64,000 nt of DNA from Candidatus Kapaibacterium sp. (GTDB lineage: Bacteria > Bacteroidota > Ignavibacteria > Kapaibacteriales > JAEUSM01). The stretch covers positions 1-64,000 of the forward strand of contig JAEUSM010000016.1 in the NCBI GenBank assembly GCA_016788785.1, read 5' to 3'. The notes under the pieces were generated by a model. It saw nothing but the letters and a program-made list of their open reading frames with translations, ran no database searches and was not told where the DNA came from. The translations under genes and the position numbers were made by a program. This document shows, piece by piece, positions 2,177 through 33,974 of the stretch; the stretch's first letter is position 1; every line of letters starts with the position of its first letter.

Positions 2177-4231
2177 TTATCTCAATAGTTGAAATGGATA
2201 AGCGAATGACTTTTTGGAGGTTGTTATTTCCAGAAAATACATTCCTTGTGGTAATCCGTTTGTATTGAGAGTAAATTCTTTCTCATTATTCATTGGGAAT
2301 ATCATTACTGATAAGCCCAATAAATTTCGGACAACGACTGAATACAGCTGTTCGTTTTCTTTGGTATGTATCCGTATTTTCGAAACGCTAGTAACAGGAT
2401 TTGGAATAATTTCAACACCAACATTTTCGCTTTCATTTACTGAAGTTAGTGAATTTGTTGTAAATACTCTTACTTCAGACCATTGACCGAGATTTTTGTT
2501 GGAATTTGATTTAACTTGCCAAAAGTATTTTGTTTCTTTTTCTAAGGATTTGTACTCAAAAGTATTTTGTGTGATATTTTCTTCATTAACTACAGTTGTA
2601 GAAAATGTACTATCTTTGGAAAGCTTCAATTCATAACTTTCTGCACCATTTATTGGTTGCCATGTGAAATTCACTGAAGTTGGTGCGATTTCAGTCTCAT
2701 TTATTGGCTGAATTAAATTAGGTTTTGCGAGAATCGTGAGAAAATCCCACGTATCCGACCATACGCCAAATTCACCGTCTTTGCGTGTACGTGTCTGCCA
2801 ATAGTAACGGCGATTATGCTCCAAATTTTTGATGTCTGTTTGCAATACGCTTTGCACGGGTGTTCGTTCTAAAACTGTTGTTGCAAAGGTAGGAACAGTT
2901 GAAACCCTGACTGTATAGCCGTCAACGTCAGTTGCTGGGTTCCAATGGAGCAAGGTATCGACTGGTACGCCGATTGCATTCGAATCTGGGTACCGTTGAG
3001 CAACCATCGGCAACCCCGGAAGACGAAATGTCCACGTATCTGACCAAGCCGTTGTGTCATCACTGACCAATTGTTTCACTCGCCAGTGGTATGTAGTATT
3101 TTGTTTGAGCGTATTCGTTCCGTCGTAAAAATAGGTAGTGTCTAATATACCTACTACGTCTTCAATGAGCGTTGAAAAATCTGCTTTGTCGGAAAGTTGT
3201 AGGAACGAACTCGCATTGAGTTGACCTTGCCGACGCCATTTGAAATTGATAAGTTTTGGTGCATCAGCCAATTTATTGGGTGGTTCGACCAATAGTGGTT
3301 TCGTTTGTGTAGTAAATCTCCATACATTTGAGGGAACATTTCCAATGTCAGTATTGGAAGAAACCGTCCAATAGTATATCTTGTTTTTCTCAAGTTTTGG
3401 AACGTACAATAACGTGTCCAAAACCGTCGAAGAATCAACTATAGTAGTAAAAAATAGTGGCGAGGTGGAAAGCTTAACTGTATAATTATTGGTGCCTTCC
3501 AATTTGTTCCATCGAAGGGTTATTGCTGTATCCATCACCGAAGTAGCAGAATCTGGATACACCTTTTTGAGTGTCGTATCCAACACCAAAATAGATCTAG
3601 TTTCAGACCAGATATGACTTATCGGTCCATAAGTAGCTTGAACTCGCCAATAGTATTGTTTGTTTTTAATTAACCAATCCGTATGATAAATTGAATCTGG
3701 ATAATTATATTCCTGTACCACAAAATTTGAAGTGAAGTTAGGATTCTTTGCGATTTGAAGATTATAGGTAATTTCACCACCAATTTTATTCCAATTTAAA
3801 GAAATAGGCTTTAATGATGTTATTAACTGATCTTCAGGTAAGTACAAAGATATGATTGGATTACATGTTCTGAATTTTCTTCGCTTATAAACACCAATAT
3901 ATTCTAATTCAAATGTACTTCCAACCCCCCACTCATATTCAGTATCAAAATTCAATAAGACTTCATATTTATGAGTAGTATCAACTAACCATTTAGAAAT
4001 ATAATTAGTACCACCAACTCTGTAAACTTTATCAGCAAAACTTTTCCATTTGCAATTTGGTTGCAGAGTATATATTATTTCACCATCTTTTGGTTCGATA
4101 AGAGTGTCATCAGAAGAAGTTTCGATGTAATTTTCTATGTTTCTTTTGTTTTCAAAATAACAATTTGAAGAAAACACATATGAATTCGTATACAGTAGAA
4201 ATAGAATTATTGCAATAGTTAGTGATTTCAT
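2177..4231 (-). CDS. Fibronectin type III repeat protein with T9SS sorting domain
   Basis: A 684-residue secreted protein. The ATG at 4231 gives a good signal peptide (MKSLTIAIILFLLYTNSYVFSS); the longer reading would need a TTG at 4246. The body contains at least five FnIII-like repeats of about 95 residues, each with the pattern 'L..P.......I.F.W', 'Y.l.ls....F.t.v' and 'Y.W.v......W.S..W.F.T'. The last 70 residues form a type A T9SS sorting domain: 'IIPNPVTSVSKIRI', a VVVRNLLG strand and 'GLPQGMYFLEI', ending in a short basic tail. The protein should be exported across the outer membrane and attached or released by the Por system. It lies 7 bases upstream of the PKD adhesin gene and follows a strong terminator at 4261-4292. 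No catalytic domain is visible; an adhesive or scaffolding role is inferred. Confidence 0.85.
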   Translation of the reverse strand: MKSLTIAIILFLLYTNSYVFSSNCYFENKRNIENYIETSSDDTLIEPKDGEIIYTLQPNCKWKSFADKVYRVGGTNYISKWLVDTTHKYEVLLNFDTEYEWGVGSTFELEYIGVYKRRKFRTCNPIISLYLPEDQLITSLKPISLNWNKIGGEITYNLQIAKNPNFTSNFVVQEYNYPDSIYHTDWLIKNKQYYWRVQATYGPISHIWSETRSILVLDTTLKKVYPDSATSVMDTAITLRWNKLEGTNNYTVKLSTSPLFFTTIVDSSTVLDTLLYVPKLEKNKIYYWTVSSNTDIGNVPSNVWRFTTQTKPLLVEPPNKLADAPKLINFKWRRQGQLNASSFLQLSDKADFSTLIEDVVGILDTTYFYDGTNTLKQNTTYHWRVKQLVSDDTTAWSDTWTFRLPGLPMVAQRYPDSNAIGVPVDTLLHWNPATDVDGYTVRVSTVPTFATTVLERTPVQSVLQTDIKNLEHNRRYYWQTRTRKDGEFGVWSDTWDFLTILAKPNLIQPINETEIAPTSVNFTWQPINGAESYELKLSKDSTFSTTVVNEENITQNTFEYKSLEKETKYFWQVKSNSNKNLGQWSEVRVFTTNSLTSVNESENVGVEIIPNPVTSVSKIRIHTKENEQLYSVVVRNLLGLSVMIFPMNNEKEFTLNTNGLPQGMYFLEITTSKKSFAYPFQLLR

Positions 4232-4908: not shown

Positions 4909-4950
4909 GAATGGGGAGTGGGAGATGTGTTGGTAGGTGGAATGTGTTTC

Positions 4951-4986
4951 TATAAATATGTGACCACTCCGTGGTCAGAAGAGCAA
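4951..4986. repeat. TGACCAC/GTGGTCA dispersed repeat, copy 1
   Basis: About 36 bases starting TATAAATATGTGACCACTCC. They match 33840-33875 with two or three differences. The core is a 7-bp perfect palindrome with a 3-base loop (4961-4977). Both copies lie in non-coding REP-like islands. Confidence 0.7.
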
Positions 4987-5033
4987 CCCCGCTACTGCGT
5001 GACGCCACTCCAAGTGAGGAGAATTATTTTTAT

Positions 5034-5053
5034 AGGGGCGTATTGCATACACC
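5034..5053 (+). repeat. GTAG-type REP-like element, degenerate copy
   Basis: AGGGGCGTATTGCATACACC belongs to the GGGGCGTATT subtype found at 15669, 15736 and 33951. The 5' G-T-A-G is A-T-A-G here and the right arm has ACACC in place of ACGCC, so it is probably a decayed copy. Confidence 0.6.
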
Positions 5054-5070
5054 CATTTGTGCAGAATGCC

Positions 5071-5107
5071 CCCTCACCCCAACCCTCTCCCTCGTGGGGG
5101 AGAAGGA
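5071..5107. repeat. CCCTCTCCC-type palindromic repeat, copy 1
   Basis: It reads CCCTCACCCCAACCCTCTCC, then a short loop and GGGGGAGAAGG. Related copies lie at 32117-32161, 33778-33816 and 56377-56418. Confidence 0.6.
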
Positions 5108-5209
5108 GTTGTTTTATTGGAGTAGATTACACCCCAACACACTAAGAGAGCCTCAATGTACACAGATACCTCTCAAAAGGTTAGAATAGAATATTTGAGT
5201 TAGTAATTC

Positions 5210-9359: not shown

Positions 9360-10345
9360 CAATCAATTCCCCAAATGAGATAAATGCTACCCCAAGTAAA
9401 TCCTGCTCCAAATGAAGCCAAGATGAGTTTATCACCTTTTTTCAATTTTTTGTCATAATACCATTCCGATAAACAAATTGGAATGGTACCAGCAGTTGTA
9501 TTGCCATATTTTTGAATATTAATCATAACTTTATCATAGTCAATACCCATACGTTGACGAGTAGCATCAATAATACGTAAATTTGCTTGATGAGGAACCA
9601 AATATGCTATTTCAGAAGGAGAAATGTTATTACGCTCCATTATTCTAACCGCAACTTCTGCCATACCAACAACAGCATGCTTGTAGACATTCTTTCCATC
9701 TTGGTAGACAAAATGTTCTCTATTTTCTACAGTTTCTAATGACGCAGGTTTTGAAGAACCACCAGCTATTTGGTAAAGAAATTTTCCACCTTCACCATCC
9801 ATATGAAGTATAGTATCTTTAATTCCTATTGACTCATCATCTGTATGCTCTATTAGAACACATCCAGCTCCGTCACCAAATAAAATACACGTATTTCTAT
9901 CGGTAAAATCAAGGATAGAACTCATTTTATCTGCACCAATGACTAATGCTTTTTTCACAACACCGGCATTCACCATGCTTGTTGCAGTAGCTAAAGCATA
10001 CATAAATCCAGAACATGCGGCTGATATGTCATAGCCCCAAGCATTTTTTGCCCCAATTTTACGTTGGACAGTTGCTGCACAGGAAGGGAAATTGTTGTCT
10101 GCAGTAATTGTTGCAACTAAAATCAAATCAATTTCTTCTGCAGTAATTCCTCGTTTTTCTAAACATTGTTGCACAGCAGGAACAATCAAGTCAGAAGTTG
10201 CCCCAGAAGTTGCAAAACGACGCTCGATTATACCGGTACGCTCACGAATCCATTCGTCAGAAGTATCTATTTTATCTTCAAAATATTTATTATCAAAAAC
10301 TTCAGGCGGAACGTAATGTCCAACAGAACTAATATATGCAGGCAT
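9359..10345 (-). CDS. fabH: 3-oxoacyl-[ACP] synthase III
   Basis: Initiates fatty-acid synthesis by condensing an acyl-CoA with malonyl-ACP. It has 328 residues, full length. The triad is visible: C111 in SAACSGF, H in PHQANLRI (about 253) and N in YGNTTAGTIP (about 281). WIRERTGI near the N-terminus is typical of the family. It follows plsX by 5 bases and is coupled to fabD. Confidence 0.96.
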   Translation of the reverse strand: MPAYISSVGHYVPPEVFDNKYFEDKIDTSDEWIRERTGIIERRFATSGATSDLIVPAVQQCLEKRGITAEEIDLILVATITADNNFPSCAATVQRKIGAKNAWGYDISAACSGFMYALATATSMVNAGVVKKALVIGADKMSSILDFTDRNTCILFGDGAGCVLIEHTDDESIGIKDTILHMDGEGGKFLYQIAGGSSKPASLETVENREHFVYQDGKNVYKHAVVGMAEVAVRIMERNNISPSEIAYLVPHQANLRIIDATRQRMGIDYDKVMINIQKYGNTTAGTIPICLSEWYYDKKLKKGDKLILASFGAGFTWGSIYLIWGID

Positions 10346-10350
10346 TGATG

Positions 10351-11403
10351 TTAGGATACAGGTGTAGGAATTGACGAATTGTACTCTTGAATAGAAGTAC
10401 GAATTGAGTCGTTGATATTTTTTTGTTTTGATTCTACTGCACGTAAAATCATATTTTGAATTGCCAATGGTGTTGATTTCCCATGACCAATAATTACAAC
10501 ACCATTTACTCCCAATAAGGGAACTCCACCGTATTCTTGATAATCATACGATTTGAGTACTTTTTTCATAATTGGTGCTACTATCAAACCAACCATTAAT
10601 TTGTTCCAAATACTTTTTTGAGCAAATTGTTTAAACGCTACCTTGAGAGTCCCCAAAAAGCTTTCTGCAAATTTTAGAACGATATTTCCTGTAAAACCAT
10701 CTGTTACTATCAAATGTGCTGTACCTTGAAAGATGTCTCTTCCTTCAACATTACCAATAAAATTCAGTGGAGATTCTTTGAGCAATGCTAAGGTTTCAAT
10801 TGCAACTTCATTGCCTTTACTTTCTTCTTCACCAATATTCAACAAACCAACTTTGGGATTTTTAATTCCTAAAATTTCTTGAATATAAATAGAGCCCATA
10901 ATACAAAACTCAACAAGATGTTTTGGTTTTGAATCTACATTGGCACCAACATCAAGAAGTAAGCATGGATCTTTTTGTTGAGTTGGGAAAAAGGCACCAA
11001 TTGTTGGACGAGATACACCGTTGATTCTACCTAAAATCACTGTTGCAGCTGACATAACAGCACCTGTATTTCCTGCAGAAATAAACGCATCAACATGAGC
11101 GTCTTTGTGTGCATTGATACCGACAATCATAGAAGAATTACGTTTTTTTCGTAAAACGACCGTTGGGTCATCTTCCATAGTTATTACTTCATCGGTGTGG
11201 ATGATGGAATATCGGAAACTTGGTGGGAGTGTTTGTTTGGCAAGAGCAGAACGAATTTCCTGCTCTTTACCAAAAAAAACTATTTCAATAGGGGTTGTTT
11301 CACTAAGTAGCGTTGAAGCCATTATTGCACCCTGAATCTCATTCATTGGAGCAAAATCGCCTCCCATTGCATCGACAGCTATTTTGAGTAGCGGGTTTGA
11401 CAT
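10351..11403 (-). CDS. plsX: Phosphate acyltransferase PlsX
   Basis: Converts acyl-ACP to acyl-phosphate for PlsY, linking fatty-acid to phospholipid synthesis. It has 350 residues, full length. The start IAVDAMGGDFAP, FISAGNTGA and the VTDGFTGNIVLK motif are diagnostic. It lies between rpmF and fabH, the classic order. Confidence 0.96.
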   Translation of the reverse strand: MSNPLLKIAVDAMGGDFAPMNEIQGAIMASTLLSETTPIEIVFFGKEQEIRSALAKQTLPPSFRYSIIHTDEVITMEDDPTVVLRKKRNSSMIVGINAHKDAHVDAFISAGNTGAVMSAATVILGRINGVSRPTIGAFFPTQQKDPCLLLDVGANVDSKPKHLVEFCIMGSIYIQEILGIKNPKVGLLNIGEEESKGNEVAIETLALLKESPLNFIGNVEGRDIFQGTAHLIVTDGFTGNIVLKFAESFLGTLKVAFKQFAQKSIWNKLMVGLIVAPIMKKVLKSYDYQEYGGVPLLGVNGVVIIGHGKSTPLAIQNMILRAVESKQKNINDSIRTSIQEYNSSIPTPVS

Positions 11404-12259: not shown

Positions 12260-15200
12260 TTAACTACGGTATTTTTTGAAATTCTCTGCTTGCTCAAATA
12301 TCTCCATATAAACCTCATCTCGAGTTACTGGAGGATAATTATATTTATCCAAAATGATAATTATATCCACTTTTAATCTTGCTTTTATGTCATCTCTTTT
12401 ATTCCAATCTGGATAATTTGCTTGAGAATCGACAATCTTTTTAATTTCTTTTGCCAATTCTATCATTTTATCATCTGGGTAAGTGAAATTATACTTTACA
12501 CACAATGCAAACAAAATATCGTAAAATGCTTTTTCTTCTAGATCAATTCCAAGTGAAAGTCCAGCTGTAAACTCATTTTGCACTTGGAGAATTAAATCTG
12601 TCAAAGATTCTGCAATTTCATCATATACTTCACTTCTAAAAATATCATTTTTATCTCGAGTATTGTATTTTTCAACTATCCTCTGCATTTTCTCGCTAAA
12701 GTTCACTCCTTGAACTTTGTTGATTTGTTTGATTTGAGTAATTGCTTGGCGAAGGAGTTTTTGTAAAATTTCTATTTTAGTATTTGGCAACTTCAATTTG
12801 TTTAATAATTGCAAATACTCTTCATCAAACAAATCCTGTTCTTTTTGTTTTTCTTCTCCGATTTTTAATATCTCCTCTACTCCACTACTATTCAATGCGT
12901 TGTTTACCATTTCTCGTACTCGAGCATTCATTTGGGCAACATCTGGCGCATCACCTTTAGTAATTTTATAGATAATTGTTCTAACTGCAAAAAAGAAATG
13001 AGAAAGGTCTCGCTCATGTTGTGTTAATAATTCGCTTCCTGAACATATATCATATGCAGCTTTCAGTCGTTTTACGTGACCCATAAAGTTGCTTTTTCTT
13101 TCTTCAGATTGTAAAACAAAATCTGATGCTGTATTCAGTGTAGATAATTGTTCAGATGGAGCTCCTGTAAAATATGGTGAGTAATCACATATTTTGACAA
13201 AAATATTATCTAATAAATCTAATTGATTTTTGACGACTTTAACCGATTGTTCTATTTCTTCGAATTTTTGCTCTTGACCTTTGCTATATTTTTGCAAAGC
13301 AAAGTCCATTTGATTTTTTATTCCAATGTAATCAACAACTAATCCCTTTTCTTTTTCTTTGTATTTTCTGTTTACACGGGATATTGTTTGAATTAAATTA
13401 TGTTGTTGAATTGGTTTATCAATATAGATACTATCTAAAAATGGAACATCAAATCCTGTCAACCACATATCGACAACTATAGCAATTTTGAAATTCGAAT
13501 CTGCTTCTTTGAATTGTCGTGCTAATTCTGATTTTTCTTCTTTTGTTCCCAAGAGTTCATACAATTCCTTCGGGTCATCTTGACTTCTTGTCATTACCAA
13601 TTTCACTCGTTCTATTGGTTTGACTTTCTTCTTGTCAGCACTTACTCCTTCTAATTCCTTGATTTCATTCCATTCTGGCCGTAATGCTATAATCCGTTTA
13701 TAAAATTCATATCCGATTTCTCGGGAACTACTTACAAACATTGCTTTCCCTACAACGGAAGAGCCTTCATTTACTCTTTGTTCGTAATGTTGAATAAAAT
13801 CATTGGCAAGTACATCCAATCGTTCTGGATTTCCTAATACTGCATACACCGTTGAACTTTGTTCTTTGCTTTTGTCTATCTGATATTCATTTGCTCCAGC
13901 TTCTGCAGCCTCTCGATAGTATTGTTCAATTTTTTCTAATTCACTATTTTGCAAATTTACCTTAGCTGCTCTACCTTCATACACAATTCGCACTGTTATT
14001 TCATCGAGTACTGATTGTGTCATTGTATACGCATCTGCAACTTCTCCAAATACATCAATTGTTGCATCGATTGGCGTTCCTGTGAAGCCCACATACGTTG
14101 CATTTGGCAATGAATCGTGCAAATATTTTGCAAAACCGTAGGTTTTACGAACTCCTGTTTCGGTCATGATAATTTTTTGATCCAAATTCGTTTGTGAACG
14201 ATGTGCTTCATCGGAAATACAAATCACATTTGTTCTGTCGGTGAGTAATTCAATATCTTCTGTGAATTTATGGATAGTTGTTAAAAACACTCCTCCACTT
14301 TTACGATTCTGCAATTTAGTTCGCAAATCCGCTCTACTTTCTACTGATACGACTGTATCATCTCCAATGAATTTCTTTGCTTCCACAAATTGTTCTGACA
14401 ATTGACCATCTAAATCTGTCCTATCAGTAATGAGGACAATGGTAGGGCTTGCAAAAAACTCACTTTTCATCAATACTCTTGTTAAGTATAGCATTGTAAA
14501 GCTTTTTCCGCATCCTGTTGCTCCAAAGTACGTACCACCCTTTCCATCTCCTTCAGGTCGTTGAGCTAATTTTATCCGTTCAAATAATGCTCTCGTTGCA
14601 TAAAATTGGGGATAGCGACAAATATATTTTTCTTCCTTTGTGGAAGAATCTGGAAAATAAATGAAGTTTTTGATTATATCTCGTAACCGAATTGTATGGA
14701 ACATTCCATGAATCAATGTAAACATGCTGTTAAATCCGTCTACATCCATATTCATTCCTGCAATGCGACGCCAAGCATAATAAAATTCGTACGGAGCAAA
14801 GAAAGAACCTGCTTTGGAATTAACACCATCGCTGATGACACAAAAAGCATTGTATTTGAAGAGTTCTGGAATATCCCGTTTGTATCGTTGAGTGATTTGG
14901 ATATATGCATCGTGGATTGTTGCTTCTTCGCGTATGGCACTTTTGAATTCAAAAACAACCAATGGCAAACCATTGATATAGACTATTCCATCTGGTATGC
15001 GAAGATGTTGTCCTTGAATTTCTAATTGTGTGACAAATCGGTAAATATTGCCGTCAGGTCCGTAATTGCTTATTGATTCAGAAACAACTGTTTGCAATTG
15101 ATTTTTGGGTGGCAATATCGAAGGCCCAATATCTCGGTAATCAATCAATTGAATATACTCATCTTGTTTTGATCTATCTTCACGATTGAAAATAAATCCA

Positions 15201-15463
15201 TTTGCAATCATATCCCAGATTTGTTTATTCGTTTCATACAAATCAAATACAGATTTTTGTTTCAGCTCTCGAATAATAGAATCAATTTCCCTATCGGTAA
15301 TGCCAATGGAAGCATAACGGATTCGCAAAAACGTCCGCAAATCATCTTCGATTAGCACTTCCTCATTAGTTCGAATCAATGAAGAACCCAAAGAATGATC
15401 ATATCCTTCTTGTTCCATTAATTCTATAAATGTCTTTTCTAATTGGTTCTCGTTAAAACTCAT
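12260..15463 (-). CDS. hsdR: Type I restriction enzyme, R subunit
   Basis: Motor and nuclease subunit of the HsdRMS complex; it translocates DNA using ATP and cleaves it remotely. It has 1067 residues. The N-terminal PD-(D/E)xK nuclease has D158 (RIPDGIVYING), E172 and K174 (VVFEFKS). The SF2 motor has Walker A GATGCGKS (K320) and DEAH at 418-421 (CISDEAHRSQ), then the GFTGTPI motif, and motif VI-like QTISRVNRKYK in the second RecA fold. The C-terminal third is helical and should contact HsdM. The ATG overlaps the stop of the RAYT gene (ATGA), so translation is coupled to it. No terminator is visible after the stop at 12260; the fab-operon promoter starts 30 bases downstream. Confidence 0.96.
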   Translation of the reverse strand: MSFNENQLEKTFIELMEQEGYDHSLGSSLIRTNEEVLIEDDLRTFLRIRYASIGITDREIDSIIRELKQKSVFDLYETNKQIWDMIANGFIFNREDRSKQDEYIQLIDYRDIGPSILPPKNQLQTVVSESISNYGPDGNIYRFVTQLEIQGQHLRIPDGIVYINGLPLVVFEFKSAIREEATIHDAYIQITQRYKRDIPELFKYNAFCVISDGVNSKAGSFFAPYEFYYAWRRIAGMNMDVDGFNSMFTLIHGMFHTIRLRDIIKNFIYFPDSSTKEEKYICRYPQFYATRALFERIKLAQRPEGDGKGGTYFGATGCGKSFTMLYLTRVLMKSEFFASPTIVLITDRTDLDGQLSEQFVEAKKFIGDDTVVSVESRADLRTKLQNRKSGGVFLTTIHKFTEDIELLTDRTNVICISDEAHRSQTNLDQKIIMTETGVRKTYGFAKYLHDSLPNATYVGFTGTPIDATIDVFGEVADAYTMTQSVLDEITVRIVYEGRAAKVNLQNSELEKIEQYYREAAEAGANEYQIDKSKEQSSTVYAVLGNPERLDVLANDFIQHYEQRVNEGSSVVGKAMFVSSSREIGYEFYKRIIALRPEWNEIKELEGVSADKKKVKPIERVKLVMTRSQDDPKELYELLGTKEEKSELARQFKEADSNFKIAIVVDMWLTGFDVPFLDSIYIDKPIQQHNLIQTISRVNRKYKEKEKGLVVDYIGIKNQMDFALQKYSKGQEQKFEEIEQSVKVVKNQLDLLDNIFVKICDYSPYFTGAPSEQLSTLNTASDFVLQSEERKSNFMGHVKRLKAAYDICSGSELLTQHERDLSHFFFAVRTIIYKITKGDAPDVAQMNARVREMVNNALNSSGVEEILKIGEEKQKEQDLFDEEYLQLLNKLKLPNTKIEILQKLLRQAITQIKQINKVQGVNFSEKMQRIVEKYNTRDKNDIFRSEVYDEIAESLTDLILQVQNEFTAGLSLGIDLEEKAFYDILFALCVKYNFTYPDDKMIELAKEIKKIVDSQANYPDWNKRDDIKARLKVDIIIILDKYNYPPVTRDEVYMEIFEQAENFKKYRS

Positions 15464-16038
15464 AGTCTGTATAGTGTATCATATTCCCATTGTGCGGGAT
15501 TATTAAAAATATATTCTGAAATTCGCTGGTATGAATATTCATTTCGAATAACGTGTTCGTAGTAATTTCGTTGCCACAGTTTGCCTGAAACACCTATCTG
15601 AAGAGATTTTTTTGTAACCGCAGATTTATACCCTCGAACAATAGAACCTAACTTTTGTTTTGGAGACTGTAGGGGCGTATTGAATACGCCCTCATTATCT
15701 TTAACGTCCAGATGTTCAGAATCATTCTCTAAGTTGGGCGTATGCAATACGCCCCTACCATTGATATGTATTATTCCATGCATGTGGTTAGGCATAATTA
15801 CAAACGCACCCAAGTCAATATTTTCGCGAATTAACGGTGTCATTTCCCAACATTCTTTTGCAATCCTACCACATTCATTCAATACTATCTTCCCACCCAC
15901 AACTGAACCAAATCGGCACACCATATCCTGACAACATATCGTCACAAAATACATCCCCACTTGCGAATAATCATATTCCGGTAAACGGATTGATCGTCGG
16001 TGATGCAAAGCTGAATTATATTCTGTTTCGGTGGGCAT
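15460..16038 (-). CDS. REP-associated tyrosine transposase (RAYT, HUH family)
   Basis: A single-strand DNA endonuclease/transferase of the IS200-like Y1 family that moves or processes REP elements. The ATG at 16038 gives 192 residues; the frame continues upstream to a GTG at 16095, overlapping the Shedu gene, but the family's usual N-terminus starts near RRSIRLPEYDYS. YFVTICCQD is the first strand, H85-M86-H87 in IMPNHMHGII is the HUH metal site, and Y159 or Y160 in WQRNYYEHVIRNE is the likely nucleophile. SEYIFNNPAQW ends the domain. Between HUH and LGSIVRGYKSAV lies a roughly 35-residue insert (about 94-128), encoded largely by two inverted REP-like elements. The gene sits inside an hsd operon and overlaps hsdR by 4 bases. 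Confidence 0.9.
   Translation of the reverse strand: MPTETEYNSALHHRRSIRLPEYDYSQVGMYFVTICCQDMVCRFGSVVGGKIVLNECGRIAKECWEMTPLIRENIDLGAFVIMPNHMHGIIHINGRGVLHTPNLENDSEHLDVKDNEGVFNTPLQSPKQKLGSIVRGYKSAVTKKSLQIGVSGKLWQRNYYEHVIRNEYSYQRISEYIFNNPAQWEYDTLYRL
15669..15692 (+). repeat. GTAG-type REP-like element inside the RAYT gene, left copy
   Basis: GTAGGGGCGTATTGAATACG followed by CCCT: GTAG plus a hairpin (GGGCGTATT/AATACGCCC). On the coding strand it specifies the EGVFNTPL segment. It is inverted relative to 15736-15758 and differs from it at one core base. Confidence 0.85.
15736..15758 (-). repeat. GTAG-type REP-like element inside the RAYT gene, right copy
   Basis: On the minus strand it reads GTAGGGGCGTATTGCATACG then CCC. 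Together with 15669-15692 it forms an inverted pair separated by 43 bases, like a BIME, wholly inside the coding sequence. It encodes the RGVLHTPN segment. Confidence 0.85.
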
Positions 16039-16075
16039 AGGAGGTGTTAAGTTTATTCTGAAATGTTTGCAGAAT

Positions 16076-17209
16076 TTATTTATTTTTTGGTTCACTACCT
16101 TTTACTATAAATTCTGCTCTCTGATACAACTCGTCATAGGTTATTATTTCTACATTTCTACTGTCTCGTCGAAACAATTCAAATGTTTTTTTCATTATTG
16201 ATTTTTCTCGGTCTGTTTTATCATCAATTTGCTTCCAACTACCAATTATCAGTATAACCTTAGAATCAAAAGCCTTTTGATGTATCTTTTCATCTCTATC
16301 TGTAAATTGTTCTGTTTCAAATTTTATGATACCAGAAGATTTTTGTTCAAGTATTTGTGAAACTGATTCAAAAAATTCTGTTGATAGTTTCCATGAATTT
16401 GCTCTATTTTGATTTTTTGCAAACAAATTTGTTGAAGGTTTTTTCAATTCTACAAACGTAACAAAGTTGTTATCTCCTAATAAGAAATCTGTAATTACTG
16501 TATTCGATCCATCAATATGTGTGTGTGAAATACTTGCTTCTTTTTGCAAAACCTCATTAAATCTATAATCTAAGCCATATCCGAAAATCCATTGATTAAG
16601 ATTAAAAAAATGTTGCCAAACCTTTTCTTCATGTGCGCCAGAAACACTTATATCTTGTGCATACTCTTTCCAGTAATTAGGCTCATCTAGAAGCTTTTTA
16701 AATGTATCTAAACTATTTTTTCTGAATCCAATATTTACAACATCTTTAGAAGTAATACCACCTTCATTTAAGATGGTTTCTAACAATTCTTCTCCATCAT
16801 TAGACATTAAAAACTGTTTTATTTTTTCTACAGAGTCAGCGTCTATTTTTCTATGGATTGGTACTTTCTTTTCTGTATGATTTGCAAAATCAATATTTGA
16901 AAGAATTTCTGTAAATTCAATTAAGTGATGTAAAGTAAACATTGAAAAGTTGATTCGTTCAACTACTGAATTGCTTTTAATTCTTGTAATTTCTAATCCT
17001 TTTAGATCATCATGGTCTTTTACATAAGTTACTTTAATTTGAGTTTTTGCTGAGATATTTAATTCTAATTCTATTTTATCATCAAAAACAACGCTAAAGA
17101 ATTTTATTTTCTTTTGATCATTACAGTATAATTGATCTGTCAGAGAATTTAAAATTATCTCTTGTGTAGTAGGTTTAGATTCAGGTATTTCTTGATTAAA
17201 AGCTCCCAT
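16076..17209 (-). CDS. sduA: Shedu (SduA, DUF4263) anti-phage nuclease
   Basis: A 377-residue protein whose C-terminal half matches the Shedu/DUF4263 nuclease. Visible elements are EEKVWQHFFNLNQWIFG (194-210), a PD-(D/E)xK core with D241 (TDFLLGDNN) and E254-x-K256 (VELKKPS), a VILIIG strand and the closing VEIITYDELYQRAE. The first 190 residues have no recognised fold but are beta-rich followed by helices, as in Shedu N-terminal sensor regions. Shedu is known as a one-gene defence system that cuts nucleic acid. Here it sits between hsdS and the RAYT gene, 7 bases from hsdS, so it is expressed with the restriction system. The family call rests on motif order, not on a search. Confidence 0.85.
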   Translation of the reverse strand: MGAFNQEIPESKPTTQEIILNSLTDQLYCNDQKKIKFFSVVFDDKIELELNISAKTQIKVTYVKDHDDLKGLEITRIKSNSVVERINFSMFTLHHLIEFTEILSNIDFANHTEKKVPIHRKIDADSVEKIKQFLMSNDGEELLETILNEGGITSKDVVNIGFRKNSLDTFKKLLDEPNYWKEYAQDISVSGAHEEKVWQHFFNLNQWIFGYGLDYRFNEVLQKEASISHTHIDGSNTVITDFLLGDNNFVTFVELKKPSTNLFAKNQNRANSWKLSTEFFESVSQILEQKSSGIIKFETEQFTDRDEKIHQKAFDSKVILIIGSWKQIDDKTDREKSIMKKTFELFRRDSRNVEIITYDELYQRAEFIVKGSEPKNK

Positions 17210-17216
17210 CTCTTTC

Positions 17217-18419
17217 CTACCCTTCTACTGTTGCTAATTTTGATAATAATAGATTCTTCAGTTCTGTGAGTTTTTGGTTTTGTAACTTAATTTCAATAAT
17301 ATGTTCAATCAATGGGTCCATTAATGAATTCATCGTTTTTAAAGAATTGGGACATAGTACTTTTGCTTCATTTAAATGTTCTCTATTTATATGTCCTAGT
17401 GACGTTGCTTTTCCTTCTGCAATTCTAATAAATACATCTAAGTAAAATTTTGTCCATAAATAATAAAACCATTTTGAATATATGTTAGAATAAACTTTGA
17501 ATAAATGTTGATTCAATGCTCCAGTACCTCCACACCAGATTTTTACTTTTAAAGTTCCAGACCAAGAAAATATTACATCTCCATTTGTTACTATATATTC
17601 AAGTGGTATTTTTGAACTTCCTTTATTTGAATTTACATCAAAAAATCCTTGGCTTAATTCTCGAATTTTTATAATTTGCAAACATTCATTTTCATTTTCA
17701 ATTGGGTATTTTTGCATAGCTAATCCATTAAGAAAGTCCGCTATCTCTCCCAAGCTTTTGACTTCCCAGCCTTTGGGGATTTCTTTGGAGAGTTCTTCGT
17801 TCCAAACCATTTCGCCACCATTGGATTTGTATGGTAGACCGTTTTCGTTTGGAAATTCGAATTCCACAAACCACCGTTTGTAAATAGTTTGGGCGGTGTC
17901 TTCGAGTTTTTGGATGAGTTGATCGTTCAGCTCTATTCGGCGTTGGATGGCATTATATTCGGCTACTATCTCCCGTTGCTTTTCTATTGATGGAACCGGT
18001 AATTCCATATCACAAAAATCTTCCCATTCTAAACTACCACGAACACCTCCAACTGCATGAAAACAAGCTTCACGGTCAAATTCTGCACGAGTGAACCATA
18101 ACATAAGATATTCAGGGATCAATTCATTTCTATTCGATACTTCAAATATTTGATATGCTTGAGAAACAATTGACGGCTCAGAATCAATATACAAAGCTAC
18201 AGGCATTTTTTTATCTCTTCGAACCTGCATTGTACTACATGCAAATTGGTTAAAGGAAATTATTTTGTATATTTCTAAATCAGTTCCAATAATATTTGCA
18301 ACAGAAGGAATAAATTCCTTTGTAACACTTAGACCTATAAGTTTTTGAACCTTTAAACCTGAATTCCTAATGTCAATCTCCCGTATATAATCACCAATTC
18401 TTCTATAATTTGATTTCAT
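17217..18419 (-). CDS. hsdS: Type I restriction-modification specificity subunit
   Basis: A 400-residue DNA-recognition subunit. The ATG at 18419 overlaps the end of hsdM by 17 bases; an ATG-preceded frame further upstream (from 18473) would lie deep inside hsdM. There are two target recognition domains: residues 1-160, followed by the coiled-coil spacer LPVPSIEKQREIVAEYNAIQ...NDQLIQKLEDTAQTIYKRWF, and a second one starting at PKGWEVKSLGEIADF and ending in a second helical spacer EHIIEIKLQNQKLTELKNLLLSKL. The paired spacers set the gap in a bipartite target site. The recognition sequence cannot be read from the protein. Confidence 0.93.
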   Translation of the reverse strand: MKSNYRRIGDYIREIDIRNSGLKVQKLIGLSVTKEFIPSVANIIGTDLEIYKIISFNQFACSTMQVRRDKKMPVALYIDSEPSIVSQAYQIFEVSNRNELIPEYLMLWFTRAEFDREACFHAVGGVRGSLEWEDFCDMELPVPSIEKQREIVAEYNAIQRRIELNDQLIQKLEDTAQTIYKRWFVEFEFPNENGLPYKSNGGEMVWNEELSKEIPKGWEVKSLGEIADFLNGLAMQKYPIENENECLQIIKIRELSQGFFDVNSNKGSSKIPLEYIVTNGDVIFSWSGTLKVKIWCGGTGALNQHLFKVYSNIYSKWFYYLWTKFYLDVFIRIAEGKATSLGHINREHLNEAKVLCPNSLKTMNSLMDPLIEHIIEIKLQNQKLTELKNLLLSKLATVEG

Positions 18420-19965
18420 AACCCAATTCTTTGAAGACAGTGAGTAAATCTTGTTTGCTTTGCTCTTCTTCACGAAGCAATTGCGAAATTTCTACTTGCA
18501 AGGTAGCCATTTTCACATCAAAATCAATTTGTTCATCTCGATTGATAAATTCGATATATTTACTTGGCACTAAGGAGTATTCCTTTTTTCTGATTTCTTC
18601 TATCGATGCAGAGTAGCAAAATTCTGGTACATTTTCGATTGGGGCAACTTGCCATTGGTGATAGGTAGAAACAATCTTTTGAATATCGTCTGTAGAAAAT
18701 TGAATGAATTTTTTTTCAAATGGCTCTCCCATTTGTCGCAAATCCATAAAAAGTATCTCTTCTTCTCTGTGTCGATACTGACGCGTTGTAGATCCAATCG
18801 TTCTGGTAATTGCCTTTTTATTTTTATTTAATATCCACAAAGTAACAGAAATATTGGTTGTGTAAAACATATTTTGAGGTAACACCAAAATCGCCTCCAC
18901 AAGATTATTTTCGATAAGGGATTTACGAATTTTGTATTCTTCTCCACCACCGCTCAAAGCACCATTGGCCAAAATAAACCCTGCAATACCATTGGCAGAA
19001 AGCTTTGACACTATATTCAATATCCACGCATAATTTGCATTGGACTTTGGAGGAACGTCATATCCCTTCCACCGTGGATCATCGAGCAATTCATTTTCCT
19101 TCCGCCAATCTTTTTGGTTAAACGGAGGATTTGCCATGACAAAATCCGCTTTCAAATCCTTATGTTGGTCATCGGAAAAAGTGTCAGTCGCTTTCAATCC
19201 CATATTGGCACTGATTCCACGAATTGCCAAATTCATTTTCGCCAATTTGTAGGTTGTGGAAGTATATTCTTGCCCATAAATGGAAACATCCATTTTGTTA
19301 CCTTGGTGAGCTTCAATAAATTTGATAGATTGCACAAACATACCACCAGTCCCACAAGCAGGGTCATAAATCAATCCACGATATGGCTCTATCATCTCCG
19401 CAATCAGATTGACAATGCTTTTAGGTGTATAAAATTCACCTTTACCTTTACCCTCAGCCAATGCAAATTTGGAAAGGAAATACTCATACACCTTACCTAC
19501 AACATCCAAGGACGAATCTTTTTGCGTATCAAACCCATTAATGGTATCAAGCAAAGACGCTAATTTACTTTCGTCAAGTTCCAACCGTGAGAAGTAATTA
19601 TCTGGCAATGCACCACGAAGAACGGGATTGTTTTTTTCAATCGTATGCAAAGCAGTATCAATAATTATTGCTATTTCCTTTTGTTTTGCTTTTCCGATAA
19701 TATAGTTCCATCGTGAAATTTCTTCCAAAAAGAATATATTATCCATTTGATAGAACTCAGGTCTTTCGATATACTGTTCTTGACCTTCTTCGATTAATTT
19801 GGCACGTTTTAGTTCAAATTTATCACTTGTAACCTTCAAAAAAATGAGTGAAAGCACGATATGTTTATATTCGGAAGGTTCGACATTACCACGAAGAGCA
19901 ATCGCAGTATCCCATAAAAGGGCTTCAAAAGGTTTTTCTTTTTTTATTTTCGTCGTTTTTGCCAT
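18403..19965 (-). CDS. hsdM: Type I restriction-modification DNA methyltransferase subunit
   Basis: N6-adenine methyltransferase subunit, 520 residues. It has an N-terminal helical HsdM_N domain, the SAM-binding motif DPACGTGGMF (about 199-208) and the catalytic NPPF (about 277-280). An ESG-type GxGEFYTPKSIV motif sits in between. First gene of the operon; the promoter candidate at 19998-20031 is 30 bases upstream. Confidence 0.96.
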   Translation of the reverse strand: MAKTTKIKKEKPFEALLWDTAIALRGNVEPSEYKHIVLSLIFLKVTSDKFELKRAKLIEEGQEQYIERPEFYQMDNIFFLEEISRWNYIIGKAKQKEIAIIIDTALHTIEKNNPVLRGALPDNYFSRLELDESKLASLLDTINGFDTQKDSSLDVVGKVYEYFLSKFALAEGKGKGEFYTPKSIVNLIAEMIEPYRGLIYDPACGTGGMFVQSIKFIEAHQGNKMDVSIYGQEYTSTTYKLAKMNLAIRGISANMGLKATDTFSDDQHKDLKADFVMANPPFNQKDWRKENELLDDPRWKGYDVPPKSNANYAWILNIVSKLSANGIAGFILANGALSGGGEEYKIRKSLIENNLVEAILVLPQNMFYTTNISVTLWILNKNKKAITRTIGSTTRQYRHREEEILFMDLRQMGEPFEKKFIQFSTDDIQKIVSTYHQWQVAPIENVPEFCYSASIEEIRKKEYSLVPSKYIEFINRDEQIDFDVKMATLQVEISQLLREEEQSKQDLLTVFKELGYEIKL

Positions 19966-33950: not shown

Positions 33951-33974
33951 GGGGCGTATTCAATACGCCCCTAC
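33951..33974 (-). repeat. GTAG-type REP-like element, intergenic full copy
   Basis: On the minus strand it reads GTAGGGGCGTATTGAATACG then CCCC. This is identical over 23 bases to the left copy inside the RAYT gene (15669-15692). It lies between the T9SS gene and terC. Confidence 0.85.

Follow-up and report, generated by a model that had tools for sequence, protein, structure and literature searches.

The window, meaning the whole stretch of 64,000 nucleotides analyzed here, comprises positions 1 to 64,000 of contig JAEUSM010000016.1 of Candidatus Kapaibacterium sp. It contains a same-strand cluster (12260–19965) in the order hsdM, hsdS, a SduA/Shedu protein, a RAYT (TnpA-REP) transposase, and hsdR. 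Two REP elements lie in inverted orientation inside the coding sequence of the RAYT, and two further sites are found elsewhere in the window. Two inverted REPs that move together as one unit are termed a REPIN. The features are as follows.

5032–5054, plus strand: degenerate REP with two mismatches, found by the window search within a composite repeat (4930–5115)
12260–15463, minus strand: hsdR of a type I restriction system, whose ATG overlaps the stop codon of the RAYT (ATGA)
15460–16038, minus strand: RAYT/TnpA-REP gene, 192 aa, identified by its open reading frame, its fold, and the motifs NHMH (84–87), WQ (155), and YIFNNP (176)
15669–15691, plus strand: in-gene REP GTAGGGGCGTATTGAATACGCCC, with GTAG on the template strand, encoding GVFNTPL(Q) from residue 117
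15736–15758, minus strand: in-gene REP GTAGGGGCGTATTGCATACGCCC, with GTAG on the coding strand, encoding RGVLHTP(N) from residue 95
15669–15758, no strand: the entire inverted pair, REPIN-like with GTAG facing outward, 90 nt or 30 codons, folding into a 22-bp hairpin
16076–17209, minus strand: protein with a SduA (Shedu) C-terminal domain (SduA_C), the upstream neighbor of the RAYT, between it and hsdS
17217–18473, minus strand: hsdS of the same cluster
18403–19965, minus strand: hsdM of this cluster; the name follows from the sequence and from the place ahead of hsdS rather than from a family-library scan
33952–33974, minus strand: single REP outside the RAYT, identical to the copy at 15669 and covered by no open reading frame of at least 60 aa

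The gene at 15460–16038 is a RAYT/TnpA-REP transposase, in agreement with the preliminary description of this DNA, and it is the only RAYT gene of the host genome. Its product carries N84-H-M-H87, W155-Q, and Y176-I-F-N-N-P, that is, a class 2 HUH motif and a Y---NP motif with a tryptophan ahead of it. In an alignment of 69 homologues, H85, H87, W155, Y176, N180, and P181 are among the invariant columns. The conserved tyrosine is Y176 and not one of the residues 159/160 that had been put forward, which belong to the stretch WQRNYYEH. The sole NCBIfam match is REP_Tyr_transpos (NF047646), with 54.3 bits under a curated cut-off of 80 bits, and the Pfam match to Y1_Tnp is weak (E = 0.009); both are interrupted by the linker that connects the HUH strand with the tyrosine domain. 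Motifs and fold were herein weighted above the missed cut-off. The predicted structure has a mean pLDDT of 86, and its closest solved fold is 4er8, the Escherichia coli RAYT with a REP hairpin bound (E = 1.1e-07, TM 0.55/0.63). Both REP-encoded stretches fall into a low-confidence, structureless region of the model between the strand 85–92 and the helix 130–147. Judging from this model, the linker is probably disordered.

According to Quentin et al. (2018, PMC6006769), what is unique to TnpA-REP subclass 2.4 is the presence of in-frame REPs, generally located between HuH and Y; this subclass corresponds to RAYT group 4 of Bertels. The subclass is further characterized by WQ, YIxNNP, a median length of 194 aa, a variable insertion between β3 and αC, and a patchy distribution over phyla. 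The RAYT of the window largely fits this assignment by its motifs, its length, and its in-frame REPs in a variable linker. It differs in reading NHMH, as opposed to the NH[IFV]H form of the subclass, in which M is not listed, and in the small number of REP copies in the genome. The in-gene arrangement itself is already published; here, it is confirmed in detail and quantified. A related arrangement is the REPtron, a RAYT flanked by GTAG REPs (PMC3733652, PMC6006769). In both, the RAYT is physically linked to cognate GTAG REPs; unlike in the REPtron, the REPs lie inside the gene, and none occurs within several kilobases outside it. REPs inside other genes have also been described (PMC3733652) and, like the Rickettsia palindromic elements, resemble the present case as palindromic repeats that add in-frame residues. 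The Rickettsia elements, however, are different repeats spread over many genes and not a transposase with its own repeat.

The two in-gene REPs are inverted GTAG hairpins that differ in one core base, as had been noted before, with GTAG present at the hairpin foot in both. They can pair with each other to form one 22-bp hairpin (z = −6.5 as RNA and −6.2 as DNA). With its two inverted REPs and outward-facing GTAG, the pair resembles a REPIN, the difference being that no second copy of the pair as a pair was found in the 2.97-Mb genome. When up to three mismatches were allowed, the window gave six rows, corresponding to four distinct REP sites, as opposed to none in 100 dinucleotide shuffles, which rules out a chance origin. 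The two sites outside the RAYT, at 33952 and 5032, bear out the recurrences reported earlier.

The whole genome holds only about seven distinct REP sites, two of them inside the RAYT gene. This gene makes up about 0.02% of the genome bases, yet contains two of the roughly seven sites, for which our own arithmetic gives a chance near 1e-6 if random placement is assumed. The REP does not form a high-copy dispersed family in this genome. Three of the five outside sites lie within a composite repeat that is at least 186 nt long and whose copies, 94–100% identical, are located at window positions 4930–5115, C11:30–330, and C10:25679–25870. Hence, these three ride in a larger repeat and are not independent REP insertions. 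The REP at C18:91628 falls in a partial match to the same repeat, and the one at 33952 lies 77 nt away from another of its fragments. Parts of the composite repeat recur at about 40 more positions in the genome. The preliminary description had expected the REP core to be enriched throughout the genome and the RAYT to mobilize these repeats; the excess over shuffled sequence stands for the window, but with so few copies in the genome, mostly inside a larger repeat, spreading of the REP by the RAYT within this genome is weakly supported. Of the pattern GTAGGGGCN{8,11}GCCC, applied over the order as a stand-in for copy number, only the own-genome count was used, since it misses the 28-nt double-foot elements with their gap of 12.

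For comparison, 108 and later about 125 distinct homologous genes were collected from same-order relatives, 80 loci of named GTDB records, and same-class loci; they were picked by protein similarity and not by repeats, and their loci carry L-numbers. A search of plasmids yielded four distant RAYTs, each with less than 60% identity. A strict GTAG hairpin is present in the HUH-to-tyrosine linker of 80 of the 108 homologues, spread over many phyla and amounting to 158 elements, whereas shuffled linkers gave zero to one gene. Outside the linker, such hairpins occur in the N-terminal part of three genes and in the C-terminal part of five, and about a quarter of the 108 lack a strict in-gene hairpin. 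GTAG faces outward at both ends in 58 of the 80 hairpin-bearing genes, and roughly every second element has it on the template strand. The location of the pair between HUH and tyrosine and its length of 30 codons hold as previously described; a recent landing of the pair at this site is not supported, since most homologues have a REP in this linker as well. A single ancestral insertion is countered by the use of two phases and by the varying positions, but the number of events cannot be read from the poorly resolved tree.

The reading frames are used selectively. GTAG-forward elements occupy the two TAG-free phases, 0 and 1, with counts of 55 and 26, and the third phase never, and template-strand elements use two phases, with one of 77 in the third. 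The latter rarity goes beyond what stop codons alone explain, as that phase need not hold a stop. The linkers of L032, L040, L043, and L149 are lengthened by local tandem copies and degenerate half-REPs.

The arms of the stems covary strongly. In double-foot elements, which were located by their feet only, 99.0% of the stem cells are paired, and the covariation of the stems is 0.677, as compared with 0.189 after shuffling (0 of 500 as high). Joint changes of both arms at the same site are seen in the alignable linkers of L026/L028, L015/L024, and L012/L074, and the residue changes behind such compensated changes include C>R, N>S, H>R, L>A, and Q>R. Some of these joint changes come by way of amino acid changes, and taken as a whole, the comparison shows that the DNA palindrome rather than the peptide is what persists in the linker. 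This is the opposite of a conserved protein insert over unrelated DNA, the outcome that the preliminary description had set against its own reading.

In-gene REPs also resemble REPs in their vicinity (up to 10 kb) far more closely than those of other loci: On average, 8.3 of 10 variable bases are shared, and 14 of 27 are exact matches, compared with a permuted mean of 4.2 and a largest permuted value of 5.5. At L107, the same pair of unlike REPs is repeated 2.4 kb away. L042 (Capnocytophaga canis) contains two RAYTs about 7 kb apart (3063–3705 and 9979–10552) whose in-gene REPs differ; immediately outside either gene lies a REP similar to its in-gene one. The idea that nearby REPs substitute for missing in-gene ones was dropped, since they are no commoner where the in-gene REP is missing (19/55 versus 8/21). 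REPs outside RAYTs avoid coding DNA, with 20 of 94 inside open reading frames as compared with 86% of all bases.

The reading that we lean toward, with limited confidence, is that of a subclass 2.4 RAYT whose tolerant linker holds the cognate REPs, arranged as an inverted, REPIN-like pair and kept as a putative substrate inseparable from the gene of the enzyme. Herein, the stretch joining the HUH strand to the tyrosine domain would tolerate inserted REPs, and could hold them since most frames through a GTAG REP are open. The in-gene REP may then serve as a recognition or cleavage substrate of the RAYT, and would persist in the linker because it is bound to the gene of its own enzyme. Gene and cognate repeat would thereby travel and coevolve as a unit. 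Against the REP being a cognate substrate stand its rarity in this genome, mostly within a larger repeat, and the roughly one quarter of homologues without a strict in-gene hairpin, in which nearby REPs are no commoner.

A possible, though rather unlikely, alternative is that the in-gene REP is a functionless passenger. REPs would frequently insert near the RAYT gene and survive in the flexible linker only, with fresh copies replacing decayed ones. The structureless linker of the model, the openness of REPs in most frames, the degenerate remnants and local tandem copies in linkers, and the occasional REPs in other open reading frames are all consistent with it, and so is the covariation, since whole-stem replacement could likewise produce compensated differences, with no selection acting on the in-gene copy. 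Such renewal accounts less readily for a linker REP in about three quarters of the genes over many phyla that is always near-perfectly paired.

Less probable still is autoregulation at the level of the mRNA, in which case the hairpin, possibly with the RAYT bound to it, would limit how much is translated of either the RAYT or the downstream gene coupled to it. The RNA hairpin of the pair is very stable (−44 kcal/mol, z = −6.5) and lies about 200 nt ahead of the start of the coupled hsdR. However, with roughly half of the elements carrying GTAG on the template strand, the tag is often absent from the mRNA, and there is no sign of selection on RNA over DNA in the stems. The raw mismatch counts on the coding strand (24 A·C and 9–10 G·T), considered as a test for such selection, are an artifact of the fixed G's in the tag and of the base that follows single-foot elements; because only four G·T and no A·C mismatches are left in the stem interior, this test was dropped. 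That the linker is a conserved protein insert whose DNA resembles a REP by coding coincidence is highly improbable: Some close homologues do share a peptide (GVFNTPL in L033 and the window), but two frames are in use, the peptides vary (VGA..SPL, RGT..APT, and GVL..TPN), and compensated changes swap residues while the palindrome is kept.

The genes around the RAYT deserve separate consideration. HSDR_N is the commonest Pfam family just downstream of RAYTs (14/110 with the window counted in, as compared with 3 for the next family other than HsdR domains), and Methylase_S is the commonest upstream (10/101). By profile search, hsdR lies directly downstream on the same strand in 14 of 124 other RAYT genes, six of these with the 4-base overlap. 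These loci belong to several phyla: L012, L016, L017, L027, L033, L043, L054, L058, L076, L079, L111, L145, L159, and L162. Altogether, 27 of the 124 genes of the tree adjoin a type I gene. On the gene tree, the type I label requires 23 changes as compared with a shuffled mean of 24.6, meaning that it is scattered, although resolution of this tree is poor and no more than three such changes are forced by its starred branches. A Shedu relative was not found beside any other RAYT of the homologue loci. Further REPs in large open reading frames beside RAYTs occur at loci with type I genes, namely L079 (5481, 5795, 8401, and 11833), L105 (2256), and L112 (6391).

Restriction goes unmentioned in the description of the subclass (PMC6006769), from which the present gene differs in lying within a type I restriction cluster. 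A search of the open-access literature found no report of RAYTs beside type I restriction genes, which is no proof of novelty; the recurrence of these RAYTs in type I restriction operons is apparently unreported. It is conceivable, but quite doubtful, that subclass 2.4 RAYTs have been repeatedly recruited as working parts of such operons, between hsdS and hsdR and sometimes joined by ATGA, with the RAYT and its in-gene REP setting the level or timing of hsdR.

The locus is a real, well-formed case of a known and remarkable arrangement, and the novelty of the finding as first written is low. Across many phyla, a domesticated transposase mostly forms one physical gene with its repeat, and a DNA-level constraint is written through coding sequence. 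A RAYT with an in-gene REP hence represents a compact natural unit of enzyme plus substrate for testing how REPs spread. In addition, the locus points to an unexplained link of these RAYTs with type I restriction operons, which merits a survey of its own.
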